Origin: Pseudomonas gingeri
GTDB lineage: Bacteria; Pseudomonadota; Gammaproteobacteria; Pseudomonadales; Pseudomonadaceae
Length of the DNA stretch: 64,000 nucleotides
Assembly (NCBI RefSeq): GCF_013386165.1
Contig: NZ_JACAOS010000022.1
Coordinates: 165,369 to 229,368 of the forward strand
Direction: 5' to 3'
Shown: positions 8,846 to 51,451 of the stretch, in pieces
How positions within the stretch are numbered: the first letter of the stretch is position 1
Layout: each line of letters starts with the position of its first letter
Program-made: the position numbers and the translations under genes
Notes under the pieces: model-generated
Told to the model about the DNA's origin: nothing
The model's input: only the letters and a program-made list of their open reading frames with translations
The model's database searches: none

Positions 8846-10183
8846 TTAAAGAATATACCGCGACAGGTCTTCGTTCTTCGCCAATTCGCCGAGGTGGCTG
8901 TTGACGTATTCGGCGTCGATGCGGATCGGCTCATCGTTGTGGGCGCTGGCCAGATCACCGGCGCTGAACGAGACTTCCTCCAGCAGGCGCTCCAGCAGCG
9001 TGTGCAGGCGACGGGCACCGATATTCTCGGTCTTCTCGTTGACCTGCCAGGCGATTTCCGCCAGGCGCTTGATGCCGTCCGGCAGGAACTCGATGGTCAG
9101 GCCTTCGGTCTTCAGCAACTCGCGGTATTGCTCGGTCAGCGAGGCGTGCGGTTCGCTGAGGATACGCTCGAAGTCTTCCGGGCTCAGGGCCTTGAGTTCG
9201 ACGCGGATCGGCAGGCGGCCTTGCAGCTCGGGTACCAGGTCGCTCGGCTTGCTCAGGTGGAACGCACCGGAGGCGATGAACAGGATGTGGTCGGTCTTGA
9301 CCATGCCCAGCTTGGTGTTCACCGTGCAGCCTTCGATCAGCGGCAGCAGGTCGCGCTGTACGCCTTCACGGGAGACATCGGCGCCGCCGACGTTGCCGCG
9401 CTTGGCGACCTTGTCGATTTCGTCGATGAACACGATACCGTGCTGCTCGACGGCTTCCAGGGCCTTGGCCTTCAATTCCTCGTCGTTGACCAGGCGCCCG
9501 GCTTCTTCGTCACGGACCAGCTTGAGCGCGTCCTTGACCTTGAGCTTGCGGCTCTTGCGCTTGCCCTTGCCCATGTTGGCGAAGAGGTTCTGCAACTGGT
9601 TGGTCATCTCTTCCATGCCCGGCGGCGTGGCGATCTCGACGCCGTACGACTCGGCCACTTCGATTTCGATCTCCTTGTCATCCAGCTGGCCTTCGCGCAG
9701 GCGCTTGCGGAACAGCTGGCGGGTGTTGGAGTCCTGGGCTGGGGCCGAGTCTTCGTTGAAACCCATGCGGGCCGGTGGCAACAGGGCGTCGAGGATGCGT
9801 TCTTCGGCGGCGTCTTCGGCGCGATGGCGGACCTTGACCAGTTCCTGCTCGCGCAGCAGCTTGATCGCGGCGTCGGCGAGGTCACGGATGATCGATTCGA
9901 CGTCACGGCCGACATAGCCGACTTCGGTGAACTTGGTCGCTTCGACCTTGATGAACGGGGCGTTGGCCAGTTTGGCCAGGCGCCGGGCGATTTCGGTCTT
10001 GCCGACGCCGGTCGGGCCGATCATCAGGATGTTCTTGGGCGTCACTTCAACACGCAGCTCCTCGGGGAGCTGCATCCGCCGCCAGCGGTTGCGCAAGGCA
10101 ATGGCGACGGCGCGTTTGGCATCGTCCTGACCAATGATATGGCGATTGAGTTCGTGGACGATTTCGCGGGGGGTCATGGACAT
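8846..10183 (-). CDS. hslU: ATP-dependent protease ATPase subunit HslU
   Basis: AAA+ unfoldase (ClpY) that feeds substrates into the HslV peptidase; cytoplasmic. The 445-aa protein has Walker [15 protein letters not shown] near residues 57-70 and Walker B FIDEIDKV near residue 250, with the insertion I-domain between them. It starts at ATG 10183 (MSMTPREIV), 44 bases after hslV, forming the hslVU operon. Confidence 0.97.
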
Positions 10184-35430: not shown

Positions 35431-36498
35431 ATGACTGCCCTGAAGAACGACCGTTTCCTTCGCGCCCTGCTCAAGCAACCCGTGGACGTCACCCCTGTGT
35501 GGATGATGCGCCAGGCCGGTCGCTACCTGCCGGAATACCGCGCCAGTCGCGCCAAGGCCGGCGACTTCATGAGCCTGTGCATGAACCCGTCGTTCGCTTG
35601 CGAGGTCACGATGCAGCCTCTGGACCGCTACCCGGGCCTGGACGCGGCGATCCTGTTCTCCGACATCCTGACCATCCCCGATGCCATGGGCCAGGGCCTG
35701 TACTTCGAAACCGGCGAAGGCCCGCGCTTTCGCAAAGTCGTCAGCACCCTGGCCGATATCGAGGCCCTGCCGATCCCCGATCCGCAGAAGGACCTGGGCT
35801 ATGTCATGGACGCGGTCAGCACCATTCGTCGCGAGCTCAACGGTCGCGTGCCGCTGATCGGCTTCTCCGGCAGCCCCTGGACCCTGGCCACTTATATGGT
35901 CGAAGGCGGTTCGTCGAAAGACTTCCGCAAGACCAAGGCCATGCTCTACGACAACCCCCAGGCCATGCACCTGTTGCTGGATAAACTGGCGCAGTCGGTC
36001 ACCTCCTACCTCAATGGCCAGATCCTTGCCGGGGCCCAGGCCGTGCAGATTTTCGACACATGGGGCGGTAACCTGTCGGCGGCGGCCTACCAGGAGTTTT
36101 CCCTGGCCTATATGCGCAAGATCGTCAGCGGCCTGATCCGCGAACACGAAGGGCGCAAGGTACCGGTGATCCTGTTCACCAAGAACGGCGGCCTGTGGCT
36201 GGAAAGCATTGCCGACGCCGGGGCCGATGCCCTGGGCCTGGACTGGACCTGCGACCTGGGCGAGGCCCGTCGTCGGGTCGGCCACCAGGTGGCCTTGCAG
36301 GGCAACATGGACCCGACCGTGCTGTACGCCAAGCCCGAAGCCATCCGTACTGAAGTGGCGCGGATTCTCGCCAGCTATGGCGAAGGTTCCGGCCATGTGT
36401 TCAACCTCGGCCACGGCATCACGCCGGAAGTCGATCCGGAACACGCCGGTGCGTTTATCAATGCCGTGCACGAGTTCTCCGCGCAGTACCATCGCTGA
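35431..36498 (+). CDS. hemE: Uroporphyrinogen decarboxylase
   Basis: Decarboxylates uroporphyrinogen III to coproporphyrinogen III in haem synthesis. The 355-aa protein has the N-terminal signature [16 protein letters not shown] (residues about 24-39) and the second signature [17 protein letters not shown]. It is flanked by hairpins on both sides, so it is probably monocistronic. Confidence 0.97.
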
Positions 36499-37021: not shown

Positions 37022-38479
37022 ATGAAAAGAAAGATGTCGGCACTTGGCAAGGCGTCGGGGTGTGTCTCTTCCCTGGCGGTGATCGCGACCCTGGTCGCCT
37101 CGCAGCATGTCGCCGCGCACGGTTACCTGAATGATCCGCCGTCCCGGGCTTTTGCTTGCCAGAAAGGCTTGAACAATGACTGCGGTCAGGCGCAATACGA
37201 GCCGCAAAGCGTCGGTGAAACCGCCAAGGGCTTCCCGGCGACCGGCGTGGCGGATGGCAAGATCGCCAGTGGTGCGATCGCGTTGTTCGCGCCAATGGAT
37301 ATCCAGTCGGCGAGCCGCTGGTACAAGACTGAAATCACCGACCGTGCGATCAACTTTGACTGGTACTACAGGGCCACTCATCCGGCGAGCAAGTATGAGT
37401 ACTTCATCACCAGGAACGGCTGGAACCCCAACCAGCCCTTGGCACGCGCTTCGTTCGACCTGACGCCGTTCTGCTCCGTGGACGCGGGCGGCCGGCTGCC
37501 CACCGACCAACCCCAGGGCAGTGACGGGCCTGCCCGTGAGAAACACCCCTGCGAGATACCCGCCGACAAGAGCGGGTATCACGTGATCCTCGGGATGTGG
37601 ACCGTGGCTGATACCGGCGGGGCGTTCCACAACGTGGTCGACGTGAATATCGTGGCTGAGGAACAGGCGCCGGACGGTTGGAAAACCGTCGGCAACATCA
37701 CGCCGACCCAGTCCCTGCTGGCCGCTGACAAGGTCAAGGCCCGGGCCTTGACCGGCGAGGGTGAAAGTGCCGAGTACAGCGCTGAAATCACCATCGTCGA
37801 CAGCGAGGACGGCAAGCCGGAGAACTGGGCGTTCAAGCTGGCCGAGCAAATCAACCGGAGCCAGACACTGGTCCGAGCCGGTGTCCGTGGTGAAAACGGT
37901 GCCATCGAGCCGATCAAGGGCGTTAACCAGCTGTTCGCCAAGGCTGAAAGCGGTGTGAATCGCTATGAGCTCGATGTGCAGATGCAGGACGACGCCGATG
38001 CGAGTATGAGCATTTCCACTATTGGCACTGATTTGGAACTCAAGGAAGGACGCTTGGCGATGCCTTTCCCGGTGCTCACGAACCGGAAAATGAACCTCGA
38101 GGCCACGGTCTTCGATGCGGCCAACAAGCCGGTAGGCGTCATGACGCAGTTGGTTGAGGCTGGTAGCACCTGGCTGAACGTGGACGTGCGCAGTGAGCCG
38201 GGTACCCATGAACTCAAGCTGGTGGGCGTGACTGAAGACGGTCGCAGCACTCGCCAGGACCTGGTGTCCGTAGAGCTTGGCGGCGAGGGTGGCAGTCAGG
38301 ATTACGACTTCGCCTATCCGGAAGGCATCGAAGGTTATCAGTCCGGGACCAAGGTCCTGTCCAACGGTAACGTCTACGAGTGTCTGCCATTCCCCGCAGG
38401 CGCCTGGTGCAAGATCAACAGTCACCACTATATCCCGGGTGTCGGCCCAAGCTGGCAAGACGCCTGGACCGTCAAGTAA
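37022..38479 (+). CDS. gbpA: Secreted lytic polysaccharide monooxygenase, GbpA-type (AA10)
   Basis: Copper enzyme that oxidatively cleaves chitin; also an N-acetylglucosamine-binding adhesin in this family. The 485-aa protein has a signal peptide (1-32) ending VAA, cut before His33, the N-terminal copper-brace histidine (HGYLNDPPSR). The second brace His is His120 (ATHPASKYEY) and the axial Phe is Phe202 (GGAFHNVVDV). GbpA middle domains (about 210-420) follow, then a C-terminal chitin-binding module (about 440-485; YECLPFPAGAWCKI). I took ATG 37022; an earlier in-frame ATG at 36976 would spoil the signal peptide. The T2SS operon downstream is its likely export route. Confidence 0.93.
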   Translation: MKRKMSALGKASGCVSSLAVIATLVASQHVAAHGYLNDPPSRAFACQKGLNNDCGQAQYEPQSVGETAKGFPATGVADGKIASGAIALFAPMDIQSASRWYKTEITDRAINFDWYYRATHPASKYEYFITRNGWNPNQPLARASFDLTPFCSVDAGGRLPTDQPQGSDGPAREKHPCEIPADKSGYHVILGMWTVADTGGAFHNVVDVNIVAEEQAPDGWKTVGNITPTQSLLAADKVKARALTGEGESAEYSAEITIVDSEDGKPENWAFKLAEQINRSQTLVRAGVRGENGAIEPIKGVNQLFAKAESGVNRYELDVQMQDDADASMSISTIGTDLELKEGRLAMPFPVLTNRKMNLEATVFDAANKPVGVMTQLVEAGSTWLNVDVRSEPGTHELKLVGVTEDGRSTRQDLVSVELGGEGGSQDYDFAYPEGIEGYQSGTKVLSNGNVYECLPFPAGAWCKINSHHYIPGVGPSWQDAWTVK

Positions 38480-38497
38480 TCCCTCAAGGTTGAGCGC

Positions 38498-38518
38498 CGG
38501 GCTGCTGGGCAGCCCGGT
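38498..38518 (+). terminator. Hairpin after the LPMO gene
   Basis: A ccgggctg stem with a ctggg-type loop and its complement lies 19 bases after the stop. The following bases (tgtattcggttta) are only moderately T-rich, so some readthrough into the b561 gene is possible. Confidence 0.45.
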
Positions 38519-38570
38519 GTATTCGGTTTATTGGCGATGTTGTTGTCGGCTGGTTTTTGGGTGAACACCA

Positions 38571-39065
38571 TTGTTTTACTCTAGAGCACAAATTTTTCTT
38601 CATTGGCTGTCCGCCGCCATTATTTTATGGGCGTTGGTCAGCGGTTTTTATGTGGCTTTCTTGAGCACTTCGCTGGCGCTTAAACAAGTCGTAGGTTCTT
38701 TTAATGTGTCTGTCACGGCGCTGTTTATTCCGTTTTTTGTTGTCAGGATTTTTCTTTCTTTTTCTCCGAGAGAACAGACGGCCAGAACGCTCGCACAATG
38801 GACGGCTTTTTGGGTTCATAAAGTTATTTATCTGGTGACCGGCATCGTGTTGGCAACGGGCGTCATGATGATGGACCGGGCCATCAATCTATTCGACCTG
38901 CTCTTGATACCCGCACCGATTGATAGTGCTGGCCTCATCGCTGTTTTTAAAAAACTCCATGATGTTTCCTGCGTTGTTCTGGCCGTCCTGGTGGTTTTGC
39001 ATATTGGCGCGGTTATTCGTCATGAAGTCTCCGGTCATCGAATACTCAGGCGGATGCTGTGGTAA
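38571..39065 (+). CDS. Cytochrome b561 family membrane protein
   Basis: A 164-aa protein with four predicted membrane helices (about residues 8-30, 45-65, 82-102, 132-150), matching the prokaryotic cytochrome b561 family. Such proteins carry haem b and move electrons across the inner membrane, often from quinol. Likely haem ligands are His11 (LHWLSA), His83, His130 and His144; the His usually seen at the start of helix 2 is replaced (VGSFNV). An in-frame stop at 38562 forces a TTG start at 38571. The gene is AT-rich compared with its neighbours and overlaps the possible upstream GTG of gspC. Electron supply to the LPMO is inference. Confidence 0.8.
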   Translation: MFYSRAQIFLHWLSAAIILWALVSGFYVAFLSTSLALKQVVGSFNVSVTALFIPFFVVRIFLSFSPREQTARTLAQWTAFWVHKVIYLVTGIVLATGVMMMDRAINLFDLLLIPAPIDSAGLIAVFKKLHDVSCVVLAVLVVLHIGAVIRHEVSGHRILRRMLW

Positions 39066-39079
39066 CGCTCAGGGGGCGA

Positions 39080-39586
39080 ATGGGCTTTCTGAGCCTTGCG
39101 TTATGTGCGCTGCCGCTGGGTTATGCGGCGCTGTCGTTGTGGGGCGAGCGGATCTTCCGTCAGGCATTGCCGACGTTACCCACGGTGCAAGCCAACAGCC
39201 GATCCGTGCCTGCCGAACGTGCGCCGCTCAATCATGCCGCCGTCGCCACGGTGATGGGGCTGGTCGCCCAGGAATCCCTGGCTCGCAGTGCTGAACCCTT
39301 GAAGCTGCAGGCCAGCTTTGTCTCCAGCGCCGGCGATTCCCGAGCCCTGCTGGCGGGGGCCAGTGGTCAGCGCATCTACCGGGTGGGCGAAAGCCTGCCG
39401 GGTGGCAGCGTCCTGCGGCGGATCGAGAGCGGTCGGGTGGTGCTCTGGCGCAATGGCCGCGAGGAGCTGTTGTCGCTGGAGCCCCCCGGCCGCCCCATCT
39501 TGCAGGCGTTCAAGGAGCCCGTCGCCGGCGCCCCAGTGTCTTCCCTTTATCTGCGGCCGACGGCCACACCGCGTCAGAGTGAGTAA
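39080..39586 (+). CDS. gspC: Type II secretion inner-membrane protein GspC
   Basis: Links the inner-membrane platform to the secretin and helps select substrates. About 168 aa: a membrane helix at residues 2-22, then a periplasmic HR domain (about 75-145; LKLQASFVSSAGDSRALLAG). There is no recognisable C-terminal PDZ or coiled coil, only a short tail. I chose ATG 39080 behind AGGGGG; a GTG at 39059 overlapping the b561 gene is an alternative. gspD begins immediately after its stop. Confidence 0.85.
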   Translation: MGFLSLALCALPLGYAALSLWGERIFRQALPTLPTVQANSRSVPAERAPLNHAAVATVMGLVAQESLARSAEPLKLQASFVSSAGDSRALLAGASGQRIYRVGESLPGGSVLRRIESGRVVLWRNGREELLSLEPPGRPILQAFKEPVAGAPVSSLYLRPTATPRQSE

Positions 39587-41497
39587 ATGAACCCATCCTT
39601 CGAATCCGGTCGGCGCTGCCTGAAACTCTTGGGTCTGATCGTCGGCCTGATGCTGGCGTCGGGCGTGCGGGCCAATGAACCGCAATGGCAACTGGCGATG
39701 AACGATGCCGAGTTGCGTGATGTGGTGCGGGAAATGTCCTCGATTCTCGGCACCACCGTGGTGCTCGACCCGCGGGTGCAGGGGCGGATCACCGTCCTCT
39801 CCGAGCAGGCCCTGGATCGTGAAGGGGTCCGCCGGTTGTTCTATTCGGTACTCGACGCGCATAACTTCACGGTGATCGACGAAGGCGACCGCATTCTGAT
39901 CGCCCCCGTGGCCGATGCCCGCACCCGCGCCAGCAGCGCCGACAGCGCCAGTGCCCAGACGGGTCAGTTCGTCACCGAAGTGGTGGCGCTCGGTAGCAGC
40001 GTCGCGGCGGATATTGCCGGGCTGGTGCGGCCACTGGTCTCGGTCAACGGCTATGTCGGACCATCGGCGTCGGCCAATGCCCTGGTCATCACCGACAGCG
40101 CGGCGAATGTCCGACGGATCGCGAAGATCGTCCGGCAGCTGGACCTGGGGCAGAAGAATGCCCATGACGTCATCCAGTTGCGTCATGGACTGGCCAATGA
40201 GCTGGCGCGGATGCTGGAGCAATCCCTGGGGAGGCAAGGCGCCGAAGCGGGGAGTCAGGTCATTGCCGATTCGCGCAACAACCGCCTGGTGCTTATCGGC
40301 ACCCAGGACGTACGCAAGCGCCTGGGCGATCTGGCCCGCTCCCTCGATACCCCGACGGCGGCCATGGCCGACAATGCCCGGGTGATCCGCCTGCGCTACA
40401 GCGATGCCAAGCAGTTGGCCGAAGTGCTGGATGCCATGGGCCAGGGGCTCGGCCAGGAAGCGGGGGCTGCCACCAGCCGGGATGCGGTTTCCAGCAAGGC
40501 CGTGGTCAAGGCCGATGAAAGCCAGAACGCCCTGGTGCTGATCGCCGAACCGAGCCAGGTCCGTACCATGGAAAACATTGTTCGCCAGCTCGACCAGCCG
40601 CGTTCGCAGGTGTTGATCCATGCGGCGATTGTCGAGATTTCCGGGGATATCAACGAGGCCCTGGGTGTGCAGTGGGGCGCCAACACCGGGAGTGCCCAGG
40701 GCGGGGTGAGCTTTGCCGGAACCAATATCACCCTGCCGAATTTCAATGGCAGCGAGACCAAGCTGCCCGATGGTGCCGTGTTGCGCATCGGCAACGATCG
40801 CTTCGGCATGCTGGTGTCGGCCCTGGCGAGCAATAGCCATAACAACGTGTTGTCCACGCCCAGCCTGTTGACCCTGGACAACCAGGAGGCCGAGATTCTG
40901 GTGGGGCAGAACGTGCCATTCCAGAGCGGCTCCTACCAGACCTCCGGTACGGGTACCGACCGGCCCTTCAACACGGTCACGCGCCATGATATCGGGATCA
41001 AGCTGAAGATCCGTCCGCATATCAACGAAGGGTCGACCCTGCGCCTGCAGGTCGAGCAGGAAAACTCCGAACTCGCCCCGAATACGCTGACGCCCACTGA
41101 CATGATCACCAACAAGCGCACCCTGAAAAGCACCATCCTGGCTGACGACGGCGAGATCATCGTTATCGGTGGGCTGATCAAGGACAGTGTGAGTGTCCAG
41201 CAAAGCGGTGTGCCGCTGCTGCGGGATATCCCGTACCTGGGGGCCTTGTTCCGCTGGAACAGCGAGAAACATGTAAAAACCAATCTGATGGTGTTTCTGC
41301 GGCCGACCATCGTCCGCTCCAAGGAGGATATCGCCGAGGTCAGCGAGCATCGCTACAACGGCCTGCGCAAGCTCAGCCAGCCCGCCGCCGGGAAGAGCAA
41401 CTCGCTGTTGCTGCCGCGTGAGGCCCGGCAGTTGTTCGACGGCGACGATGACGAGCCGCCGATCGACCTGCGCCGACAGAAGGTCGGGGCGCCATGA
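39587..41497 (+). CDS. gspD: Type II secretion outer-membrane secretin GspD
   Basis: The outer-membrane exit channel. The 636-aa protein has a signal peptide ending VRA (about residue 29), N0-N3 domains (for example WQLAMNDAELRDVVREMS), and a secretin domain with VPLLRDIPYLGALF near residue 540. The signal sequence has no lipobox, so it is not a self-piloting lipoprotein secretin, and no pilotin gene is present in the operon. Confidence 0.95.
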   Translation: MNPSFESGRRCLKLLGLIVGLMLASGVRANEPQWQLAMNDAELRDVVREMSSILGTTVVLDPRVQGRITVLSEQALDREGVRRLFYSVLDAHNFTVIDEGDRILIAPVADARTRASSADSASAQTGQFVTEVVALGSSVAADIAGLVRPLVSVNGYVGPSASANALVITDSAANVRRIAKIVRQLDLGQKNAHDVIQLRHGLANELARMLEQSLGRQGAEAGSQVIADSRNNRLVLIGTQDVRKRLGDLARSLDTPTAAMADNARVIRLRYSDAKQLAEVLDAMGQGLGQEAGAATSRDAVSSKAVVKADESQNALVLIAEPSQVRTMENIVRQLDQPRSQVLIHAAIVEISGDINEALGVQWGANTGSAQGGVSFAGTNITLPNFNGSETKLPDGAVLRIGNDRFGMLVSALASNSHNNVLSTPSLLTLDNQEAEILVGQNVPFQSGSYQTSGTGTDRPFNTVTRHDIGIKLKIRPHINEGSTLRLQVEQENSELAPNTLTPTDMITNKRTLKSTILADDGEIIVIGGLIKDSVSVQQSGVPLLRDIPYLGALFRWNSEKHVKTNLMVFLRPTIVRSKEDIAEVSEHRYNGLRKLSQPAAGKSNSLLLPREARQLFDGDDDEPPIDLRRQKVGAP

Positions 41498-42960
41498 CAA
41501 CGCCACGCTTGCCGTTCGGCTTTGCCCGTCGCTACGGGATCTTGCTGGAACAGCAGGGCGAGGCGGCGTGCCTGGCGATCCGCGCTGATACGCCGTTGGC
41601 CGCCGTGTCCGAGGCCCGTCGCCTGATCCCTGGTCGGTTGCCGTTGCAGGTACTCGATGAGTCGCTGTTCGCCGCGCGCCTCGCCGCCGCCTACAGCGAC
41701 GGGCAGAGTGCCGCCGAGCAGGTTGCGCAAGGCCTGGACGACGAGCTGGACCTGATGAGCGTGGCCGACCAGTTGCCGCAGACCGCCGACCTGCTGGAGC
41801 AGGAGGGCGATGCACCGATCATCCGCCTGATCAATGCCCTGCTCAGTGAAGCCGTGCGCGAGAAAGCCTCTGATGTGCACCTGGAAACCTTCGAGCACAC
41901 GCTGTCGGTGCGCATGCGGGTGGACGGCCAGTTACGTGAAGTGCTCAAGCCCAGGCGTGAACTGGCCAACCTGCTGGTGTCGCGGATCAAGGTCATGGCC
42001 CGGCTGGACATCGCCGAGAAGCGCGTGCCCCAGGACGGTCGGATCGCCTTGCGGCTGGCCGGGCATGAGGTGGATGTGCGGGTTTCGACCTTGCCTTCGG
42101 CCCATGGCGAACGGGTGGTCCTGCGCCTGCTGGACAAGCAGGCCGGACGTCTCGACCTGCAACGCCTGGGCATGCCGGCGCCGACCCTGGAGCGTTTCCA
42201 GCAGATTCTCGGCAAACCCCACGGCATCTTCCTGGTCACCGGCCCGACCGGTTCGGGCAAGACCACCAGCCTCTATGCGGCGCTGAGCAGCCTCAACGAC
42301 CAGACGCGCAATATCCTCACCGTCGAAGACCCCATCGAGTATCACCTGCCGGGCATCGGCCAGACGCCGGTCAATCCCAAGGTAGAGATGACCTTCGCCC
42401 GGGGTTTGCGGGCGATCCTGCGCCAGGACCCGGACGTGGTCATGGTCGGCGAGATCCGTGACCGCGAAACCGCCGAGATCGCCGTGCAGGCTTCGTTGAC
42501 CGGGCACCTGGTGCTGTCGACCCTGCACACCAACAGCGCGGTGGGCGCGGTCACGCGGTTGCTCGACATGGGCGTGGATGCCTATCTGCTGGCGTCGTCC
42601 CTAGTCGGGGTGCTGGCCCAGCGCCTGGTACGTACCCTGTGCCGAGCGTGCAGGAGCGGCTATGTGGCGGATGCGGCGGCCTGCCAGCGCCTGGGTGTCG
42701 AGGCGAGCAACCCGCCCAGGCTCTTCAGGGCCAACGGTTGTGAACACTGCCAGCAAGGCTATCGCGGGCGTATCGGGCTCTACGAACTGATCGGCATTAC
42801 CCCGGCCCTGGCAGTACTTATCCACAACGGCGCCAGTGAACCGGAGCTGATCCGTGAAGCTCGCAAGGCATCGCGCAGCCTGTTCCAGGATGGCCTGCGG
42901 CTGGTCCTCGAAGGCCACACCAGCCTCGACGAACTGCTGCGCGTCACCCAGGAGGACTGA
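41494..42960 (+). CDS. gspE: Type II secretion ATPase GspE
   Basis: Cytoplasmic hexameric ATPase that powers pseudopilus assembly. The 488-aa protein has an N-terminal domain for GspL binding, Walker A GPTGSGKTTSLYA near residues 249-261, an Asp box (EDPIEYHLPGIGQTPVN), Walker B, and the zinc tetracysteine motif CRAC...CEHC. It overlaps gspD by 4 bases. Confidence 0.96.
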   Translation: MTTPRLPFGFARRYGILLEQQGEAACLAIRADTPLAAVSEARRLIPGRLPLQVLDESLFAARLAAAYSDGQSAAEQVAQGLDDELDLMSVADQLPQTADLLEQEGDAPIIRLINALLSEAVREKASDVHLETFEHTLSVRMRVDGQLREVLKPRRELANLLVSRIKVMARLDIAEKRVPQDGRIALRLAGHEVDVRVSTLPSAHGERVVLRLLDKQAGRLDLQRLGMPAPTLERFQQILGKPHGIFLVTGPTGSGKTTSLYAALSSLNDQTRNILTVEDPIEYHLPGIGQTPVNPKVEMTFARGLRAILRQDPDVVMVGEIRDRETAEIAVQASLTGHLVLSTLHTNSAVGAVTRLLDMGVDAYLLASSLVGVLAQRLVRTLCRACRSGYVADAAACQRLGVEASNPPRLFRANGCEHCQQGYRGRIGLYELIGITPALAVLIHNGASEPELIREARKASRSLFQDGLRLVLEGHTSLDELLRVTQED

Positions 42961-42962
42961 GG

Positions 42963-44174
42963 ATGCCGACGTTCGATTATCAGGCCCAGGATGCCAACGG
43001 TCGCCGCTGTCGCGGTCAGCAGGAGGCCGACAGCCCGCGCCACGCGCGCCAGTTGCTGCGTGAGCGCGGCCTGTTGCCCACGCAGTTGAACAGCGCTCGC
43101 GGCCAGGCGGTGACCGGCAACGGCAGTCAGCGCTCGGCCGGCTTGAAGGCCGGTGAACTGGCCTTGCTGACGCTGCAACTCTCGACCCTGATCCAGGCCG
43201 GCTTGCCGCTGGAAGAGGCGTTGCGGGCGGTGGCCGCGCAGAGTGAAAAGCGCCGGGTCAGCAACCTGCTGGCGGCGCTGCGCAGCCGGGTCATGGAAGG
43301 TTATGACCTGGCCTCGGCACTCGGAGGTTTTCCCAAGGCGTTTCCGGACATGTACCGCGCGAGCATCGCCGCTGGCGAACGCGCCGGGCACCTGGGCGCG
43401 GTGCTCGAACAGCTGGCCGAATACACCGAGGCCCGTCAGCAGGCCCGGCAGAAGATCCAGATGGCGCTGGTCTATCCGATGATCTTGCTGTTTGCCTCGC
43501 TGGCCATCGTCGCCGGCTTGCTCGGTTATGTGGTGCCGGATGTGGTGAAGGTCTTTATCAACAATGGTCAGGCCCTGCCCCTGCTGACTAAGGGCCTGAT
43601 CGCCCTGAGCAGCGGCCTGCAGCGTTACGGCGGGTTGTTGCTGATTGGATTGGCGGGGCTGGCTCTCCTGGTGCGCTGGGCTCTGGCTCGTCCCGCGGTG
43701 CGCTGGCGCTGGCATGCCTGGTTGCTGCGCGCGCCGCTGATCGGCGGTGTCCTCAAGGCCATGGAGGCGTCCCGTTTCGCCAGCACCCTGGCGTTGCTCG
43801 GCAAGAGCGCCGTGCCCCTGGTGGACGCCCTGGAAATCGCCGCGGCGGTGATCGGCAACCTGCCGATTCGCGCCCGTATGGGTGAGGTCGCGCGCTCGGT
43901 GCGCGAGGGCGGCACCCTGACCCGTGGCCTGGAGCGCGGCGGTGATATCCCGCCGCTGATGTTGCACATGATCGCCAGTGGCGAACGCGCTGGCGAACTC
44001 GACCGCATGCTCGCCCGCGCCGCCGAGCAGCAGGAGAAAACCCTCGCGGCCTGTATCGCCCTGGTGGTGAGCCTGTTCGAGCCGGCGATGCTGGTGCTCA
44101 TGGGCGCCATCGTGCTGTTGATCGTCATGGCGATTCTGTTGCCGATTCTTAGCCTCAACCAACTGGTGAACTGA
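42963..44174 (+). CDS. gspF: Type II secretion inner-membrane protein GspF
   Basis: Polytopic platform protein. The 403-aa length is as usual, with two T2SSF domains (about residues 70-190 and 270-395) and three membrane helices, the last being IVLLIVMAILLPIL. The N-terminal soluble motif MPTFDYQAQDANGR is typical. It starts 2 bases after gspE. Confidence 0.96.
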   Translation: MPTFDYQAQDANGRRCRGQQEADSPRHARQLLRERGLLPTQLNSARGQAVTGNGSQRSAGLKAGELALLTLQLSTLIQAGLPLEEALRAVAAQSEKRRVSNLLAALRSRVMEGYDLASALGGFPKAFPDMYRASIAAGERAGHLGAVLEQLAEYTEARQQARQKIQMALVYPMILLFASLAIVAGLLGYVVPDVVKVFINNGQALPLLTKGLIALSSGLQRYGGLLLIGLAGLALLVRWALARPAVRWRWHAWLLRAPLIGGVLKAMEASRFASTLALLGKSAVPLVDALEIAAAVIGNLPIRARMGEVARSVREGGTLTRGLERGGDIPPLMLHMIASGERAGELDRMLARAAEQQEKTLAACIALVVSLFEPAMLVLMGAIVLLIVMAILLPILSLNQLVN

Positions 44175-44178
44175 TCTT

Positions 44179-44619
44179 ATGAAAACCTTTGGAATGCAGC
44201 GACAACGCGGTTTCACCCTGATCGAGATCATGGTCGTGGTGGTGATTATCGGTGTGCTCGGGGCGATGGTCCTGCCGCAGTTCATGAGCCGCCCGGACCA
44301 GGCCAAGGTCACGGCGGCCCATGCCGATATCAAGGCCATCGGCACCGCGCTGGAAATGTACCGGCTCGACAACTTCCAGTATCCCTCGACCCAGCAGGGG
44401 CTGGAGGCGTTGGTCAAACGCCCGCTGGGCGTGCCTGAACCGAGGAACTGGAACCCCCAGGGTTATTTGAAAAAACTGCCGGTCGATCCCTGGGGCACGG
44501 CTTACCAATACCTGAGCCCGGGCACCCGGACCAAGGGCTACGACCTGTATTCCTTTGGCTCCGACGGCGTGTCCGGCGGCGAAGAGTTTGCCGCCGATAT
44601 CGGCAACTGGAGCGATTGA
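44179..44619 (+). CDS. gspG: Major pseudopilin GspG
   Basis: Main subunit of the T2SS pseudopilus. The 146-aa protein has a prepilin leader MKTFGMQRQRG cut before FTLIEIMVVVVIIGVL (Glu5 present), then a C-terminal calcium-binding globular region ending GGEEFAADIGNWSD. It needs a prepilin peptidase, which is not encoded in this window. Confidence 0.97.
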   Translation: MKTFGMQRQRGFTLIEIMVVVVIIGVLGAMVLPQFMSRPDQAKVTAAHADIKAIGTALEMYRLDNFQYPSTQQGLEALVKRPLGVPEPRNWNPQGYLKKLPVDPWGTAYQYLSPGTRTKGYDLYSFGSDGVSGGEEFAADIGNWSD

Positions 44620-44622
44620 CCG

Positions 44623-45093
44623 ATGCCCGGACATTCCCGTGGTTTCACCCTGCTGGAGTTGCTGGTGTCCATGGTGGTGATCGGCGTGCTGGCTGGAATG
44701 ATCGCCGTTGGCATGAACCCCAGCCCGGTGCGTCAGGCGCGCCAGGAGGCCGGTGCGCTGGTGCACCTGCTGCAACATCTGCGTGAATACGCGGTGCTCA
44801 ACAGTCAGGAGTATGGCTTGCGAATCGGTGCCGAGGGTTATCAGGTGATGGTCTTCGAACGACCCGACTGGCGTCCGGCGGGGGCGGCCTATCGGTTGCC
44901 CGACGGCCTGTATTTTCGTCTTGAGCTTGAGGGCCGTCCGCTGAAGTTGGGCGACCGGGTGAACCAGCCGCAACTGCTGGTGCTGAGCAGCGATGAAATG
45001 AGCGCCTTCACCCTGCATTACGAATCCGCGCAGCGGCGCTGGTTGAGTGTGTCCGGTGACGGCCTCGGTGATCCGGCCATCGATGAAAGCTGA
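44623..45093 (+). CDS. gspH: Minor pseudopilin GspH
   Basis: A 156-aa minor pseudopilin with leader MPGHSRG and class III cleavage before FTLLELLVSMVVIGVL (Glu5 present). It starts 3 bases after gspG, and gspI overlaps its 3' end by 11 bases. Confidence 0.93.
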   Translation: MPGHSRGFTLLELLVSMVVIGVLAGMIAVGMNPSPVRQARQEAGALVHLLQHLREYAVLNSQEYGLRIGAEGYQVMVFERPDWRPAGAAYRLPDGLYFRLELEGRPLKLGDRVNQPQLLVLSSDEMSAFTLHYESAQRRWLSVSGDGLGDPAIDES

Positions 45094-45448
45094 GTCGGGG
45101 TTTACCTTGCTGGAGGTGATGGTCGCCCTGGCAATCTTTGCCCTGTTGTCCGCGACCGTGCTGTCCGCCAGCCAGTTCGTGGTGCAGCAGAGCGGCACTT
45201 TGCAGGAGCGGTTGTTCGCGACCTGGCTGGCGGACAATCAGTTGAATGAACTGCGCTTGAAGGCCCCTCCGGCCAAGGGCCGGCAGCAGCAACGCGTGGG
45301 TTTCGACCAGCGTGAGTGGCGCCTGGAGCAAGTGGTCACGCAGGCCTCCGACCCGCGTCTGCTCAAGGTCGAGATCGCCGTGCGGCTGGACAGTGGTGGG
45401 CCAGTGCTGCATAGCGCCAGCGCCTGGGTACGGACCCCGGATGAATAG
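45083..45448 (+). CDS. gspI: Minor pseudopilin GspI
   Basis: A 121-aa minor pseudopilin with leader MKAESG, then FTLLEVMVALAIFALL. It belongs to the tip complex with GspJ and GspK. I chose ATG 45083, because an earlier in-frame start would place extra residues before the very short prepilin leader. Confidence 0.93.
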   Translation: MKAESGFTLLEVMVALAIFALLSATVLSASQFVVQQSGTLQERLFATWLADNQLNELRLKAPPAKGRQQQRVGFDQREWRLEQVVTQASDPRLLKVEIAVRLDSGGPVLHSASAWVRTPDE

Positions 45449-45998
45449 ACAGGGCGGATTTACCCTGGTCGAACTGGTCATCGCCCTGGCGATTTTCAGC
45501 CTGATCGGCCTGGCCAGTTATCGGCTGTACGAAGGGGTGCTGCTGACCCAGGCGCGGGTCAGCGCGCATGAGCAGGGCTTGCGCCGCCTGCAACGGGCGA
45601 TGGCGCTGCTGGAGCGCGATGTCATGCAGGCGACGATCCCGAAAGAGGGCGTGGCCGTGACACTGAACGCGGGGCAGTTGAACCTGCAACGCGGCAATGC
45701 GCGCAACCCCTTGGATGAGCCTCGCAGCGAGCGCCAGGAGCTTGCCTATCGCCTGGAGGACGGCGTGTTGTGGCGTTACCAGCGCCACCTGGATCTGCCC
45801 GAGACGCACAAGCAGTTGGTACTCAAGGATGTCCGTGCCTTGCAGTGGCGATTGTATGTGGACAAGGTCGGTTGGCGCAGTGATGGCGCGTCTACGCCGG
45901 GCCGTAGCGCCGTGCATCCACGGGCGCTGGAAATCACCCTGTCGGTTGATCGCTTCGAGCAGATCCGCCGTGTGGTCCTGTTGCCGGAGGGCCTATGA
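45441..45998 (+). CDS. gspJ: Minor pseudopilin GspJ
   Basis: A 185-aa minor pseudopilin with leader MNRQGG and hydrophobic FTLVELVIALAIFSLI. It overlaps gspI by 8 bases and gspK by 4 bases. The frame is open farther upstream, but the prepilin motif fixes the start. Confidence 0.94.
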   Translation: MNRQGGFTLVELVIALAIFSLIGLASYRLYEGVLLTQARVSAHEQGLRRLQRAMALLERDVMQATIPKEGVAVTLNAGQLNLQRGNARNPLDEPRSERQELAYRLEDGVLWRYQRHLDLPETHKQLVLKDVRALQWRLYVDKVGWRSDGASTPGRSAVHPRALEITLSVDRFEQIRRVVLLPEGL

Positions 45999-46855
45999 GC
46001 CGAACCGGTCAACGCGGCGTGGCCTTGATCAGCGTGCTGCTGATCATGACCCTGGCCCTGTTCGTGGTCGGTGGTCTGTTGCGTAGTCATACACGGGCCG
46101 TGCAGAGCGGCGCGCAGCATATTCATCAGGTGCAATTGCGCCAGTGGGCAATCGCCGGGGAGAGCTGGGCACAAGCGTTGTTGCTGCCGCCTGATCCGCA
46201 TGAGGTGAAGACGATCAATCTTTCCCAGCCCTGGGCGCATCCGTCGCTGCCGTTCGAGCTGCCGGGCGTCGAGGTGCGGATCGAGATCGAAGACCTGGCC
46301 GGGCGGTTCAACCTGACCCGCCTGCTGCTGCCCGGCAAGGCTGATGAAATCAGCCTGGAGCGCTGGGCTCGGTTGCTGGCGGCGCTGGAGATCCCTGCAT
46401 TCGACCTGGCGCCGCTACGGGGCACCGAGGTCAGCGACAGCAGCCAGTTGCGCCTGTTGCCTGGCGTCGACCAGAGTATTTTGCAGCGCCTGCAACCCTT
46501 CGTCGCGTTGCTGCCGGCCGATGCGACGCTGAACGTCAATACCGCGTCGGCCACGCTGCTGGCGACGCTGGAGGGCATGACCGTCGCCAGTGCCCGGGAC
46601 TTTGTTGCCCAGCGCCCGCAGGAAGGTTATGTCGACGCCCATGAGTTTACCCGTGCACCGGGCCTGGATGGGTTGGGTATTGCCAGCCATGGCCTGGGCG
46701 TCGACAGCCGCTGGTTCCGGGTCACGGTCGAGGCCAGTGCGGGCACGGCGCGACTGCGGCTGGTCAGCGATCTTGAGCGGCCTCGCGACAGCCGTCGCCT
46801 GCGTGTCCTGCAACGCCGCTTCCTGGCTCCGATTCAAGGTGAATCTCCGTTATGA
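45995..46855 (+). CDS. gspK: Minor pseudopilin GspK
   Basis: The large tip pseudopilin, 286 aa. Its leader MSRTGQRG is followed by VALISVLLIMTLALFVV, which lacks the Glu5 found in the other pseudopilins, as is normal for GspK. A long globular domain includes the helix-hairpin-helix-like LNVNTASATLLATLEGM segment. Confidence 0.94.
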   Translation: MSRTGQRGVALISVLLIMTLALFVVGGLLRSHTRAVQSGAQHIHQVQLRQWAIAGESWAQALLLPPDPHEVKTINLSQPWAHPSLPFELPGVEVRIEIEDLAGRFNLTRLLLPGKADEISLERWARLLAALEIPAFDLAPLRGTEVSDSSQLRLLPGVDQSILQRLQPFVALLPADATLNVNTASATLLATLEGMTVASARDFVAQRPQEGYVDAHEFTRAPGLDGLGIASHGLGVDSRWFRVTVEASAGTARLRLVSDLERPRDSRRLRVLQRRFLAPIQGESPL

Positions 46856-47955
46856 GCAATTGGCTTTATCTCACTGCCGAAGGCCTGGCCGCCTGCGACG
46901 CTACCTGGCCGGTTGGTTATTGGCAGGTGGGAGGCGAGTACCGCCGTATCACCCTGGCTGAGGCGGCGACGTTCCTGGCGGGGCAATCGGTGCGGGTGAT
47001 CCTGCCCATGGAAATCTGCAGCCACTTGCGCAGCGAGCCCTGGCCCGGTCGACGCAAACCCACGGTCCAGGCGCTGGCCTATGCCGTTGAAGATCGATTG
47101 GCCGAGGAGCTGGATGGACTGCATATCGCGGTCGGTGTGGCGTCCAAGGAATCGCGTTACCCGTTGCTGGCGATCAACAAGCAGCGCTTCAAGGCGATCC
47201 TGGCGTTGTTGCAGGGCTCGGGGTTGCAGGTGGTCAGCGTCAAGGTGGACGCCGATTTGTTACCGGATCATCAGGCTTATGGCGTCTGGTGGGCCGGACG
47301 CTGGTTGCTGGGTGGGGCCATCGAGGCCCGGCTCGCGCTGTCGCCCGAGGATCTTGAAGTGCTGCGGCCGAGATTGCCGGAGGCGCTGTGTTGGATGGAC
47401 GCCGATCGACAGGGTGATATAGCCGCGTTGCTGATGGCCGGTCATCCGGGCGCGCTGGACTTGCTGCAAGGTGAGTTTCGTCAGGTGCGAGCGCGTTGGC
47501 CGTGGGGAGCGCTGGTGGTGTCGGCGCTGGCGCTATTCGCGCTGTCCTGGGGTTTTACCCTGGCGCGTGCCCACTACCTGGAAAGTGCTGCACAGCAGTT
47601 GTACGAGCAGAGTGTGCAACGCTTCCAGAGCCTGTATCCCGAGCAGACTCGTATTGTCGACCTCTCGGCCCAGCTCAAGGCGTTGCAGGGCCGGAGCGAG
47701 CAATCGGACAGCCAGATGGGCCGTCTGCTGCAACTGATCGAGCAAGTGGTTGGTGGCAGCAGGGTTGAAGTACAGCGTATCGAATACCGGGCCGGCACGG
47801 GCTGGACGCTGCTGCTGACGGCCGGCAGCTTCAGCGAGCTTGAGGGTTTGCGCGAGCGCGGCCATGGCAGCGGTTTACCGATCAGGCTGGGCAGCGCCAG
47901 CAAGGATCGCGAGCGGGTGCAGGCCGTGTTGGTATTGGAGGAGAAAAACGGATGA
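46852..47955 (+). CDS. gspL: Type II secretion protein GspL
   Basis: Bitopic protein that recruits GspE. The 367-aa protein has a cytoplasmic actin-like domain (about residues 1-215), a membrane helix at about 222-240 (LVVSALALFALSW), and a periplasmic ferredoxin-like domain. It overlaps gspK and gspM by 4 bases each. Confidence 0.92.
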   Translation: MSNWLYLTAEGLAACDATWPVGYWQVGGEYRRITLAEAATFLAGQSVRVILPMEICSHLRSEPWPGRRKPTVQALAYAVEDRLAEELDGLHIAVGVASKESRYPLLAINKQRFKAILALLQGSGLQVVSVKVDADLLPDHQAYGVWWAGRWLLGGAIEARLALSPEDLEVLRPRLPEALCWMDADRQGDIAALLMAGHPGALDLLQGEFRQVRARWPWGALVVSALALFALSWGFTLARAHYLESAAQQLYEQSVQRFQSLYPEQTRIVDLSAQLKALQGRSEQSDSQMGRLLQLIEQVVGGSRVEVQRIEYRAGTGWTLLLTAGSFSELEGLRERGHGSGLPIRLGSASKDRERVQAVLVLEEKNG

Positions 47956-48416
47956 TCAGGTCACTGGCATTACCGACAATGCTCACGCAAAGGTGGCAGG
48001 GCCTGGGTCTTCGGGATCGGCGAATGCTGATCGGGCTGGCTGTTTTCCTGCTGGTGGTGACCTTGTTCAGCGCTGTGTGGCAACCGGCACAACAGCGCCT
48101 GGAGCGGGGCGAGCGCTTGTACCAACAACGCCTGCTGCTGGCGGCTGAAGTCCAGCGTGCGCAGCCTGTGCGTCAGCGCTCCAGCCCATCGCGATCCTTG
48201 TCGACCCGTCTGAGTGAAACGGTGATCGCGGCGGGTTTGGAATTGCAGCAATTGGATCAGGACGGCCAGTCGCTGCGGGTCACGCTGGCTGGCAATGCAT
48301 TGGCCTTGCTGCAGTGGTTGGATCAGACCGAGCAAGCGGGCGCGGTGTTGCAGTCTTTGAGTCTGGAGAAGCGCGACAACGGGTTGATGGCGCAGGTTGC
48401 GTGGCGGGCTGACTAA
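47952..48416 (+). CDS. gspM: Type II secretion protein GspM
   Basis: Small bitopic platform protein, 154 aa. A membrane helix at about residues 25-45 (RRMLIGLAVFLLVVTLFSAV) follows a short cytoplasmic tail, then coiled coil and a small periplasmic domain. It is the last gene of the gspC-M operon; gspN and gspO are not present. Confidence 0.9.
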   Translation: MIRSLALPTMLTQRWQGLGLRDRRMLIGLAVFLLVVTLFSAVWQPAQQRLERGERLYQQRLLLAAEVQRAQPVRQRSSPSRSLSTRLSETVIAAGLELQQLDQDGQSLRVTLAGNALALLQWLDQTEQAGAVLQSLSLEKRDNGLMAQVAWRAD

Positions 48417-48480: not shown

Positions 48481-49758
48481 TCAGACTGTTACATTGCCTG
48501 GCAATGCCTGCAACCGCGCCAGCTTCAGCGCCACCAGCAAGGCCACCACCAGCAGCCCGCCGATAAACAGGCCGACGCCATTCCAGCCCGCATAGTGCCA
48601 AGCCATGCCGCCCAGGGTCCCGGCCACGCTGGAACCGGCGTAGTAGCAGAACAGATAGAGCGACGAGGCCTGCCCCTTGGCTTTCAGCGCACGCCGGCCG
48701 ATCCAGCTGCTGGCCACCGAGTGGGCGCCGAAGAAGCCGAAGGTGAACAGCAGGATGCCCGACACCACCACCGGCAGCGGCGTCACCAGGGTCAAGGCGA
48801 TGCCCACCAGCATCATCAGGATCATGCCCCAGAGCACTTTGCGTCGGCCGAGTTTGTCGGCCAGGGCACCGATTTTCGCCGAGCTGTAGATACCCGACAG
48901 GTAGACGATGGACAGCAGGCCGACGAACGCCTGGCTCATGCCGTAGGGTTCGGCCAGCAGGCGGTAGCCGATGTAGTTGAACAGGGTGACGAAGCCGCCC
49001 ATCAACAGGAAACCCTCGAGGAACAGCCACGGCAGACCGGCATCGCGAAAGTGCACGGTAAAGCCGTCGATCAGGCTGCGGGTATTGAATTGGCTGGCGC
49101 GGAAGTTGCGCGACGGTGGCAGGATTTTCCAGAACACCGTCGCCGCGATCAGCGCCAGGATGCCGATCACCAGCATCGCCATGTGCCAGCTGACGAAGTC
49201 GATCAGCACGCCGGTGATCAGCCGTCCGCTCATCCCGCCGATGGCGTTGCCGCCGATATACAGGCCCATCGCCAGACCGATGTGCTTGGGATGAATTTCC
49301 TCGCTCAGGTAGGTCATGCCGACTGCCGCCAGGCCGCTGAGGGAGAGGCCCACCAGGGCCCGCATCACCAGCACGCCCTGCCAGCTGGGCATCATCGCGC
49401 CGAGGATAGTGAACAGCGCCGCACCAAACAACGCCACCACCATCACCGGCTTGCGCCCGAGGCTGTCGGAGATCGGGCCGGTGATCAGCAGGCCGATGGC
49501 GAGCATCGCGGTGGCCACCGAGAGGATCAGGCTGCTCTGGGCGGCGTTGATCCCGTATTCCTTGGACAGCACCGGCATCATCGGTTGTACGCAGTACAAC
49601 AGGGCAAAGGTCGCAAAGCCGCCGGAGAACAGCGCCAGCACCGTACGCATAAACGCCGGGGTGCCTTTTTCGATATAGGTGTCGTTGAGTTGGGCGACCA
49701 CATCGTCCAGCGCAGTGGGGGGAATTTCGTGGGCGAGGGGAGCGACAGCAGTTTTCAC
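48481..49758 (-). CDS. MFS transporter (YnfM-like drug/efflux type)
   Basis: About 425 aa with 12 predicted membrane helices; a hydrophilic extension of about 45 residues precedes helix 1. The inter-helix motif GPISDSLGRKPVMV between helices 2 and 3 is typical of MFS drug/proton antiporters. I chose GTG 49758, which has a GAGG five bases upstream, over the longer frame opening with TTG at 49827. It is divergent from the LysR gene at 49876, which probably regulates it. The substrate is unknown. Confidence 0.85.
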   Translation of the reverse strand: MKTAVAPLAHEIPPTALDDVVAQLNDTYIEKGTPAFMRTVLALFSGGFATFALLYCVQPMMPVLSKEYGINAAQSSLILSVATAMLAIGLLITGPISDSLGRKPVMVVALFGAALFTILGAMMPSWQGVLVMRALVGLSLSGLAAVGMTYLSEEIHPKHIGLAMGLYIGGNAIGGMSGRLITGVLIDFVSWHMAMLVIGILALIAATVFWKILPPSRNFRASQFNTRSLIDGFTVHFRDAGLPWLFLEGFLLMGGFVTLFNYIGYRLLAEPYGMSQAFVGLLSIVYLSGIYSSAKIGALADKLGRRKVLWGMILMMLVGIALTLVTPLPVVVSGILLFTFGFFGAHSVASSWIGRRALKAKGQASSLYLFCYYAGSSVAGTLGGMAWHYAGWNGVGLFIGGLLVVALLVALKLARLQALPGNVTV

Positions 49759-49875
49759 GGGGACCTCGGGGGGAGCAACCGGTCGGGCAGTGGAAAAAGC
49801 ATATAGCTGGCTAACGATTCTTTCCAATATATTATTCGACCTGTTTGATAGGTTTTACGACTTGATGAGGTGTTC

Positions 49876-50861: not shown

Positions 50862-51167
50862 ATGATTGAAATTATTCGAAGTGCGGTATTTTCCGATTGG
50901 CTCAGCGAGTTATCCGATAGCCGTGCGCGGGTTCGTGTGCAGGTTCGGATTGATCGTATGGCCGAAGGTAACTTTGGTGATGTGAAGTCAGTGGGTGATG
51001 GGCTGAGTGAGGCTCGAATCGACTATGGACCTGGTTATCGGCTGTATTTCACCTATCAAGGCCGGCATTTGGTGATCCTCCTTTGTGGCGGAGATAAAAG
51101 CAGTCAGCGCCGCGATATCAAGCAAGCTTCTCTGATTGCCAAGGCCTGGAAGGAACAAAAAGCATGA
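50862..51167 (+). CDS. RelE/HigB-type addiction-module toxin
   Basis: A 101-aa basic protein of the RelE/ParE-like killer family (phage Gp49-like branch). The motif ARIDYGPGYRLYFTYQG followed by LLCGGDKSSQRRDI is the family signature. These toxins act as ribosome-dependent mRNA interferases in well-studied cases; activity here is inferred. The downstream antitoxin gene overlaps by 4 bases. Confidence 0.88.
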   Translation: MIEIIRSAVFSDWLSELSDSRARVRVQVRIDRMAEGNFGDVKSVGDGLSEARIDYGPGYRLYFTYQGRHLVILLCGGDKSSQRRDIKQASLIAKAWKEQKA

Positions 51168-51451
51168 CCGAGCAATTTGCAAAATGGGATTCGGCCGAGT
51201 ACCTCAAGACTGAAGAGGACATGGCTAACTACCTCGATGCCTGCATGGAGGAGGCGGGTGATGATCCGGCGTTTATTGCCAAGGCGCTGGGTACTCTCGC
51301 CAGAGCACGTGGGATGACGCAAGTGGCCCGTGAGTCGGGTCTTTCCCGTGAAAGCCTTTATCGCGCGCTATCCGGCGAAGGAAACCCTGAGTTCGGGACC
51401 ATTCTGAAAGTGGTCAAGGCATTGGGCTTGAAGCTCCACGCATCGACTTGA
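51164..51451 (+). CDS. HigA-type antitoxin with HTH domain
   Basis: A 95-aa antitoxin. Its N-terminal part (about 1-45) is acidic and toxin-binding, and the C-terminal helix-turn-helix (TQVARESGLSRESLYRALSG) would bind the operon promoter. The toxin-before-antitoxin order is characteristic of the higBA-like class. The pair sits in the accessory region with a REP pair directly after it. Confidence 0.88.
   Translation: MTEQFAKWDSAEYLKTEEDMANYLDACMEEAGDDPAFIAKALGTLARARGMTQVARESGLSRESLYRALSGEGNPEFGTILKVVKALGLKLHAST

Follow-up and report, generated by a model that had tools for sequence, protein, structure and literature searches.

A cytochrome b561 gene within a conserved LPMO–type II secretion cluster of Pseudomonas gingeri and the question of LPMO electron supply

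In a 64,000-nucleotide stretch of Pseudomonas gingeri DNA (the window), a gene for a GbpA-type lytic polysaccharide monooxygenase (LPMO) of family AA10, a gene for a small cytochrome b561 and a run of type II secretion system (T2SS) genes, gspC to gspM, lie side by side. How bacterial LPMOs are supplied with electrons or peroxide is an open question, and a preliminary description of this DNA had put forward the b561 as a candidate electron source for the LPMO. Comparing the locus across genomes, we found that LPMO and T2SS form a conserved module whose linkage is real; the b561 as the LPMO's dedicated electron donor is not supported. The reading we lean towards, with confidence only a little above even, is that the locus is a T2SS of the Yts1/Txc type with a chitin LPMO as its probable dedicated substrate, and that the b561 is a quinone-linked inner-membrane cytochrome with a general envelope redox role independent of both, retained by block inheritance.

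Distribution of the LPMO, T2SS and b561 genes

Among 149 Pseudomonas genomes, 35 of the 37 full-length GbpA-type LPMOs have a same-strand gspC of this type within 3 kb (one full-length match was counted per genome, with an LPMO remnant in genome G045 in addition and second copies in G061 and G071 excluded), and all 35 strong gspC matches, taken from 44 rows, are accompanied by an LPMO. Because so many of these LPMOs adjoin gspC, we regard the two as one module, as the preliminary description had supposed. Related clusters are reported to secrete such a protein, with Yts1-dependent secretion of ChiY in Yersinia (PMC3521999) and secretion of CbpE by the Txc cluster of Pseudomonas paraeruginosa PA7 (PMC12369383); the LPMO is probably a dedicated substrate of the neighbouring T2SS.

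The b561 gene is a frequent but not a constant part of this arrangement. Using 43 of the 73 b561 matches listed for the genus (those of at least 88 bits), we found it in the LPMO–gspC interval of 24 clusters among the 35; it is absent from the other 11, where the gap between the LPMO and gspC matches is 96-284 nt. No b561 of the same clade was found elsewhere in those 11 genomes (nothing above 35 bits), where G002 has, on another contig, a 34-residue piece of 50% identity. On a quick LPMO tree with long branches flagged, built from the 30 of 35 LPMO–gspC loci whose DNA was fetched, b561 presence changes eight times, and well-supported branches require at least seven of these changes. Clustering of b561 presence on this tree does not exceed that of shuffled labels, 204 of 500 shuffles being as low. 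Given the 11 absences and the repeated change, we rejected the b561 as a requirement of the LPMO–T2SS module. Conservation of the b561 gene beside the LPMO in relatives, on which the preliminary description had staked its proposal, thus holds in part: the adjacency is common, but relatives without it are also common.

A second sample was taken by similarity to the query: of 159 loci found, the best 80 supplied 79 b561 loci. This sample overlaps the genus sample and is not independent of it. The order LPMO–b561–gspC (class A) occurs at 52 of these loci, whereas b561 lies 3' of gspM at five, between hemE and a major facilitator superfamily (MFS) gene with neither LPMO nor T2SS at seven (class C), next to an LPMO with the T2SS on the opposite strand at one (Endozoicomonas), in the order b561–regulator–T2SS at three (Yersinia, Pantoea, Serratia) and at other places at 11. 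The class F label of one locus, L129, is uncertain because the locus begins at a contig end. A family-wide sample of 148 genomes, in which matches of at least 73 bits were considered, gave 11 strong b561 matches in 10 genomes. That the LPMO–b561–gspC order is an accident of one genome can be rejected, since it recurs in all three samples.

Several loci in these samples have features of their own. The gamma proteobacterium L18 (locus L194) carries two b561 genes in one cluster, one 5' of gspC and one 3' of gspM. The Endozoicomonas locus (L155, 7885-10495) has a PagL-type lipid A deacylase gene 5' of the LPMO, whose frame ends 2 nt short of the longest b561 reading frame. In Yersinia massiliensis, a protein with a RhoGAP-domain match is encoded upstream of the b561–T2SS cluster (L128, 7138-8172), and an AA10 near the T2SS matched as two separate pieces in different frames (G149:C2:742594-743291).

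Independence also runs in the other direction. In eight of the Pseudomonas genomes this T2SS is absent and hemE and the MFS gene flank b561; seven of them have no LPMO at the locus and G045 has a remnant of 99 residues. A match to the LPMO_10 family (PF03067) is absent from six of these eight class C genomes; in the other two, G004 and G040, an unlinked match lies in a frame of 509-524 residues. For the b561 genes of G051 and G086, both from genomes without PF03067, the ratio of nonsynonymous to synonymous substitution rates (dN/dS) is 0.12 (dN 0.085, dS 0.705); over the 10 pairs of five class C loci its median is 0.137, not above that of three class A groups (0.18-0.22). By this measure the class C copies look selected, and low dN/dS together with retention thus suggests that the b561 is useful without this LPMO and T2SS; it seems to earn its keep in their absence.

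On a quick b561 tree, again with long branches flagged, class C (13 rows) requires six changes, at least five of them forced. Five class C members group with b561s located 3' of gspM, so that a single LPMO-to-gspM deletion can explain them, and G045 and G144 fall among b561s of ordinary clusters (G144 on a long branch). These counts take in class C loci found through b561 itself; losses that also removed b561 escape them. In G045 (L111) the b561 gene is intact at 9489-9941, and the LPMO remnant, an open reading frame at 7226-7525 in reverse orientation, has its signal-peptide end fused to its chitin-binding end. An unlinked b561 in G085 (L110, 8126-8600) matched in two pieces and is possibly decaying. 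Stand-alone b561 genes that share the FNVSLTT/LNVSLTT motif also occur on large plasmids of Duffyella gerundensis and Pantoea agglomerans (L217, L218), with no T2SS or LPMO annotated in flanks of 15 kb and 8 kb, for which the gene tables are incomplete.

The Pseudomonas gingeri locus

The genome around the window is 7.65 Mb, and ordinary chromosomal genes precede the locus up to gltBD and hemE (names assigned by eye). The order is hemE, a terminator-like hairpin, the LPMO gene, a second such hairpin, b561, gspC to gspM, a convergent MFS gene, a LysR gene and an addiction-module pair, the last (50862-51451) being a small Gp49-like (DUF891) and HI1420-type antidote pair of the ordinary kind. The features are as follows.

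35431-36498, + strand: hemE, which usually borders the locus upstream in Pseudomonas
37022-38479, + strand: GbpA-type AA10 LPMO, 485 residues; profile matches, signal peptide predicted
38494-38520, + strand: terminator-like hairpin of 12 pairs, directly after the LPMO stop
38571-39065, + strand: cytochrome b561 (PF01292), 164 residues, TTG start; profile and fold
39059-39586, + strand: gspC; passes the Pfam T2SSC cut-off, far under the NCBIfam GspC cut-offs
39587-41497, + strand: gspD, secretin; passes the NCBIfam cut-off
41494-42960, + strand: gspE, ATPase; passes the NCBIfam cut-off
42963-44174, + strand: gspF; passes the NCBIfam cut-off
44179-44619, + strand: gspG, major pseudopilin; passes the NCBIfam cut-off
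44623-45093, + strand: gspH, minor pseudopilin; by N-methylation motif and position only
45047-45448, + strand: gspI; passes the Pfam cut-off
45441-45998, + strand: gspJ; passes the NCBIfam cut-off
45995-46855, + strand: gspK; passes the NCBIfam cut-off
46852-47955, + strand: gspL; passes the NCBIfam cut-off
47952-48416, + strand: gspM; passes the Pfam cut-off
48481-49827, - strand: MFS transporter gene, the usual downstream border of the locus

The profiles agree with the earlier description of the LPMO as a GbpA-type AA10 protein: it matches PF03067 with 137 bits (cut-off 23) and GbpA_2 with 74 bits, and reaches 471 bits against NCBIfam GbpA, slightly below the cut-off of 481. The signal peptide and N-terminal histidine named there are predicted, with a cleavage site judged by eye rather than by a signal-peptide program, such that the mature protein would start at His 33 (HVAA followed by HGYLND). 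A histidine at predicted mature position 88 is a candidate for the second histidine of the copper brace, and the C-terminus is, by eye, chitin-binding-like.

Past the LPMO stop, gspC starts after 579 nt and the contiguous run from gspC continues to gspM, as first described and as in clusters of the Yts1/Txc type (with gspH recognised by motif and position only). The b561 gene does lie between LPMO and gspC; that it runs into gspC depends on the gspC start: with the first GTG (39059) the two genes would share 7 nt at the b561 stop, but a later in-frame start is possible, which makes the overlap uncertain. Among the open reading frames from hemE to MFS we saw no gspN, gspO or gspS, with no profile search aimed at N or S. 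The genome's single match to the prepilin peptidase family (PF06750) lies on a contig other than that of the cluster, and a second GspL match makes a second T2SS probable. Beside the cluster there is no PclR- or TtsSR-like regulator (its neighbours are hemE and MFS, with LysR beyond; the rest of the genome was not searched for regulators). A second, small AA10 LPMO elsewhere in the genome adjoins its sole GH18 match, on a contig different from that of the window cluster (G000:C7:84400-85861; L002, L220).

Hairpins suggest where the transcription units divide. A strong one (-17.5 kcal/mol or lower) follows the LPMO stop in all 52 class A loci, compared with 9 of 156 mononucleotide shuffles, 11 of 52 positions after b561 and none of 52 after gspF; many of the post-LPMO hairpins have a weak T tail (0 to 6 T in 8). 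Most LPMO transcripts therefore likely end there, with b561 belonging to the T2SS unit. In base composition, b561 has a G+C content at third codon positions (GC3) of 0.503 against 0.735-0.839 for the other genes measured in the window, and its GC3 is below that of gspD in 47 of 52 clusters. We rejected a recent foreign origin from low GC3 alone, as the median deficit relative to gspD across the 52 clusters is only 0.09 and b561 distances follow those of the cluster.

Fold and heme ligands of the b561

The b561 protein matches PF01292 with 63.5 bits (cut-off 30.1), and its AlphaFold (AF2) model, with a mean predicted local distance difference test score (pLDDT) of 89.6, has as its best PDB match the E. 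coli superoxide oxidase (SOO, or CybB; 5oc0), with a template modelling (TM) score of 0.81 at 22% identity. As modelled, therefore, the protein has the four-helix SOO fold. SOO has a reversible superoxide:quinone activity, and in this enzyme H151 ligates heme 1, with H87 and H158 serving at the site for quinone (PMC11869295). We infer that H13 is the other heme 1 ligand and, by elimination and topology, that H45 and H137 hold the periplasm-side heme 2. Each of H13, H87, H137, H151 and H158 is retained in 79 of 79 relatives, so that the heme 1 and quinone-site histidines are conserved. The difference from SOO lies in the second helix: H45 is replaced by asparagine in the same 79 relatives and in all 41 rows of the genus alignment (which leaves out G071 and G085 of the 43 places), and of the presumed heme 2 pair only H137 is kept.

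The motif N-x13-R occurs in 79 of 79 relatives and H-x13-R in none, whereas SOO and three His paralogues tested have H-x13-R. A profile comparison gives the same register; weaker pairwise and four-row alignments set the asparagine one helix turn off, with no conserved histidine there in either register. At this place, the six further PF01292 proteins of the genome have histidine in four cases, asparagine in one (the unlinked C23 copy) and neither in one. Unlinked b561 copies share the conserved residues of the linked ones, Asn45 included. Judged from these alignments, then, both linked and unlinked copies keep the quinone half of SOO and differ from it in the periplasmic half.

The absence of this probable heme ligand is the interesting feature of this b561, and one that can be checked by spectroscopy. 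A speculative extension, to which we give little credence, is that the Asn45 b561s are a distinct biochemical class. Heme 1, at the quinone site, would have two histidine ligands, and the heme on the periplasmic side would be held by one histidine with an open or weak sixth place, where quinol would reduce O2 to superoxide or peroxide, or where peroxide would be reduced. If so, a membrane protein that makes, or consumes, the LPMO co-substrate would be encoded in the LPMO cluster, and in LPMO-less strains this b561 would take part in other oxidative reactions of the envelope.

Possible roles of the b561 and comparison with known systems

On the reading we lean towards, the T2SS would export the neighbouring GbpA/ChiY/CbpE-type LPMO; the b561 gene, behind the LPMO's own hairpin, would stand at the head of the T2SS gene run; and its product would pass electrons to or from the quinone pool, its partner being a small oxidant or reductant of the periplasm, for example superoxide. 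This function would need neither this LPMO nor this T2SS, and inheritance of the cluster as one block would have kept the gene where it is.

Several observations weigh against this reading. The association is persistent: besides the 24 of 35 genus clusters, 61 of the 79 b561 loci lie within or beside T2SS or LPMO clusters, the order LPMO–b561–gspC–gspD occurs in nine of ten flank-compared loci of the family sample (the window included, and other genera too), and b561 adjoins the T2SS in three Enterobacterales and the LPMO in Endozoicomonas. With species distance allowed for, distances between b561s still track those between LPMOs (partial r 0.76) and between gspKs (0.77; 44 of 52 loci), a correlation that shared inheritance explains. 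A GspL match is present elsewhere in seven of the eight class C genomes, five over the cut-off, so that this T2SS is gone but not every T2SS; and of the five class C species used for dN/dS, the two searched for AA10, those of G004 and G040, both carry an unlinked copy. Retention past LPMO loss shows another use of the b561, not absence of an LPMO use, and without a His45 ligand SOO-like chemistry cannot be assumed. A possible looser tie, such as copper loading or superoxide and peroxide balance during export, would explain why the cluster tends to keep b561 in several families.

That the b561 is a mere passenger, functionally unconnected to the cluster and present through a preferred insertion point or as an inherited neighbour, is an alternative raised in a 2012 review (PMC3521999) and one we consider unlikely. 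Independent loss and retention in both directions speak for it, as do the stand-alone copies in Pseudomonas and on the Duffyella and Pantoea plasmids, but a random neighbour would hardly be kept with T2SS or LPMO genes in several families of Gammaproteobacteria. It is less likely still that the b561 aids T2SS function or LPMO maturation, for example through the periplasmic redox state or by reducing copper for active-site loading. The gene heads the T2SS run, stands beside the T2SS rather than the LPMO in three Enterobacterales and follows gspM in five loci, and a role in secretion was posed as a question in the same review (PMC3521999); yet 11 of 35 clusters manage without it and it is kept where this T2SS is absent.

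The proposal of the preliminary description, that the b561 hands quinol electrons on to the LPMO (whose copper it would reduce either in the periplasm, prior to export, or later by way of a shuttle), fared poorly and now seems improbable to us. Adjacency in 24 of 35 clusters, the 2-nt spacing of the Endozoicomonas frames and the genetic link of another b561 to an exported lipocalin, BcnA (PMC9113575), speak for it, but the b561 is missing from 11 clusters with at least seven changes on the LPMO tree, is kept at low dN/dS in genomes without AA10, follows gspM in five loci, is separated from the LPMO gene by the hairpin in 52 of 52 and has the same invariant residues in unlinked copies. A b561 is expected in the inner membrane and a T2SS substrate acts outside the outer membrane, so direct electron donation is hard to arrange. 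The LPMO could draw on other sources: CbpD of P. aeruginosa is boosted by pyocyanin together with ascorbate and may receive its copper from azurin (PMC7902821). Finally, it is very doubtful that the b561 handles superoxide or peroxide linked to the LPMO, removing superoxide from uncoupled enzyme during export or making peroxide co-substrate: the SOO fold, the reversibility of the SOO reaction (PMC11869295) and a plausible open coordination place on the periplasm-side heme, without the second-helix histidine, favour this, but the same asparagine occurs in copies with no LPMO nearby and the gene is kept in AA10-less genomes.

Because related Pseudomonas have the LPMO–T2SS cluster with or without b561, and b561 alone, they form a natural experiment in which strains can be compared before mutants are made. 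Among the exported redox proteins discussed around bacterial LPMOs are reportedly Cbp2D and Cbp2E of Cellvibrio japonicus, which are said to be neither b561 proteins nor tied to a T2SS cluster. A word search of the open-licence literature found no publication linking an LPMO to a b561, the sole match being a dust-mite transcriptome, and in the open-licence literature found we did not meet the linkage counts, the two-way independence or the Asn45 class, with no search aimed at a missing b561 heme ligand. The LcoA–BcnA pair is a precedent for a b561 gene repeatedly linked to an exported-protein gene; its partner is a lipocalin and its phenotype lipid peroxidation, with neither LPMO nor T2SS mentioned in the passages concerned (PMC9113575).

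The closest likenesses are to two secretion clusters. As in the window, the T2SS of Yts1 adjoins a cytochrome b gene and the gene of a chitin-binding protein that resembles GbpA; Yts1 differs in that Yersinia chiY lies at the 3' end, whereas the window LPMO lies upstream of b561 and gspC, with no PclR-like gene beside the T2SS, and the relevant passages do not treat ChiY as an LPMO (PMC3521999). In Txc, the T2SS (PSPA7_1407-1417) lies near the gene for its chitin-binding substrate (PSPA7_1419), with one locus number between (PMC12369383, PMC8623646); Txc is part of a genomic island that also carries the two-component system TtsSR, whereas the window cluster lies between hemE and MFS with no adjoining two-component gene. 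The 2012 review noted the b561–T2SS–ChiY linkage in Yersinia, P. aeruginosa and P. putida, called the role of b561 unknown and asked whether there is a functional tie (PMC3521999). The locus is thus a cluster of the Yts1/Txc kind with an unexplained b561 subfamily, whose linkage has been known since 2012, and our survey puts numbers on what was then left in print as a question.

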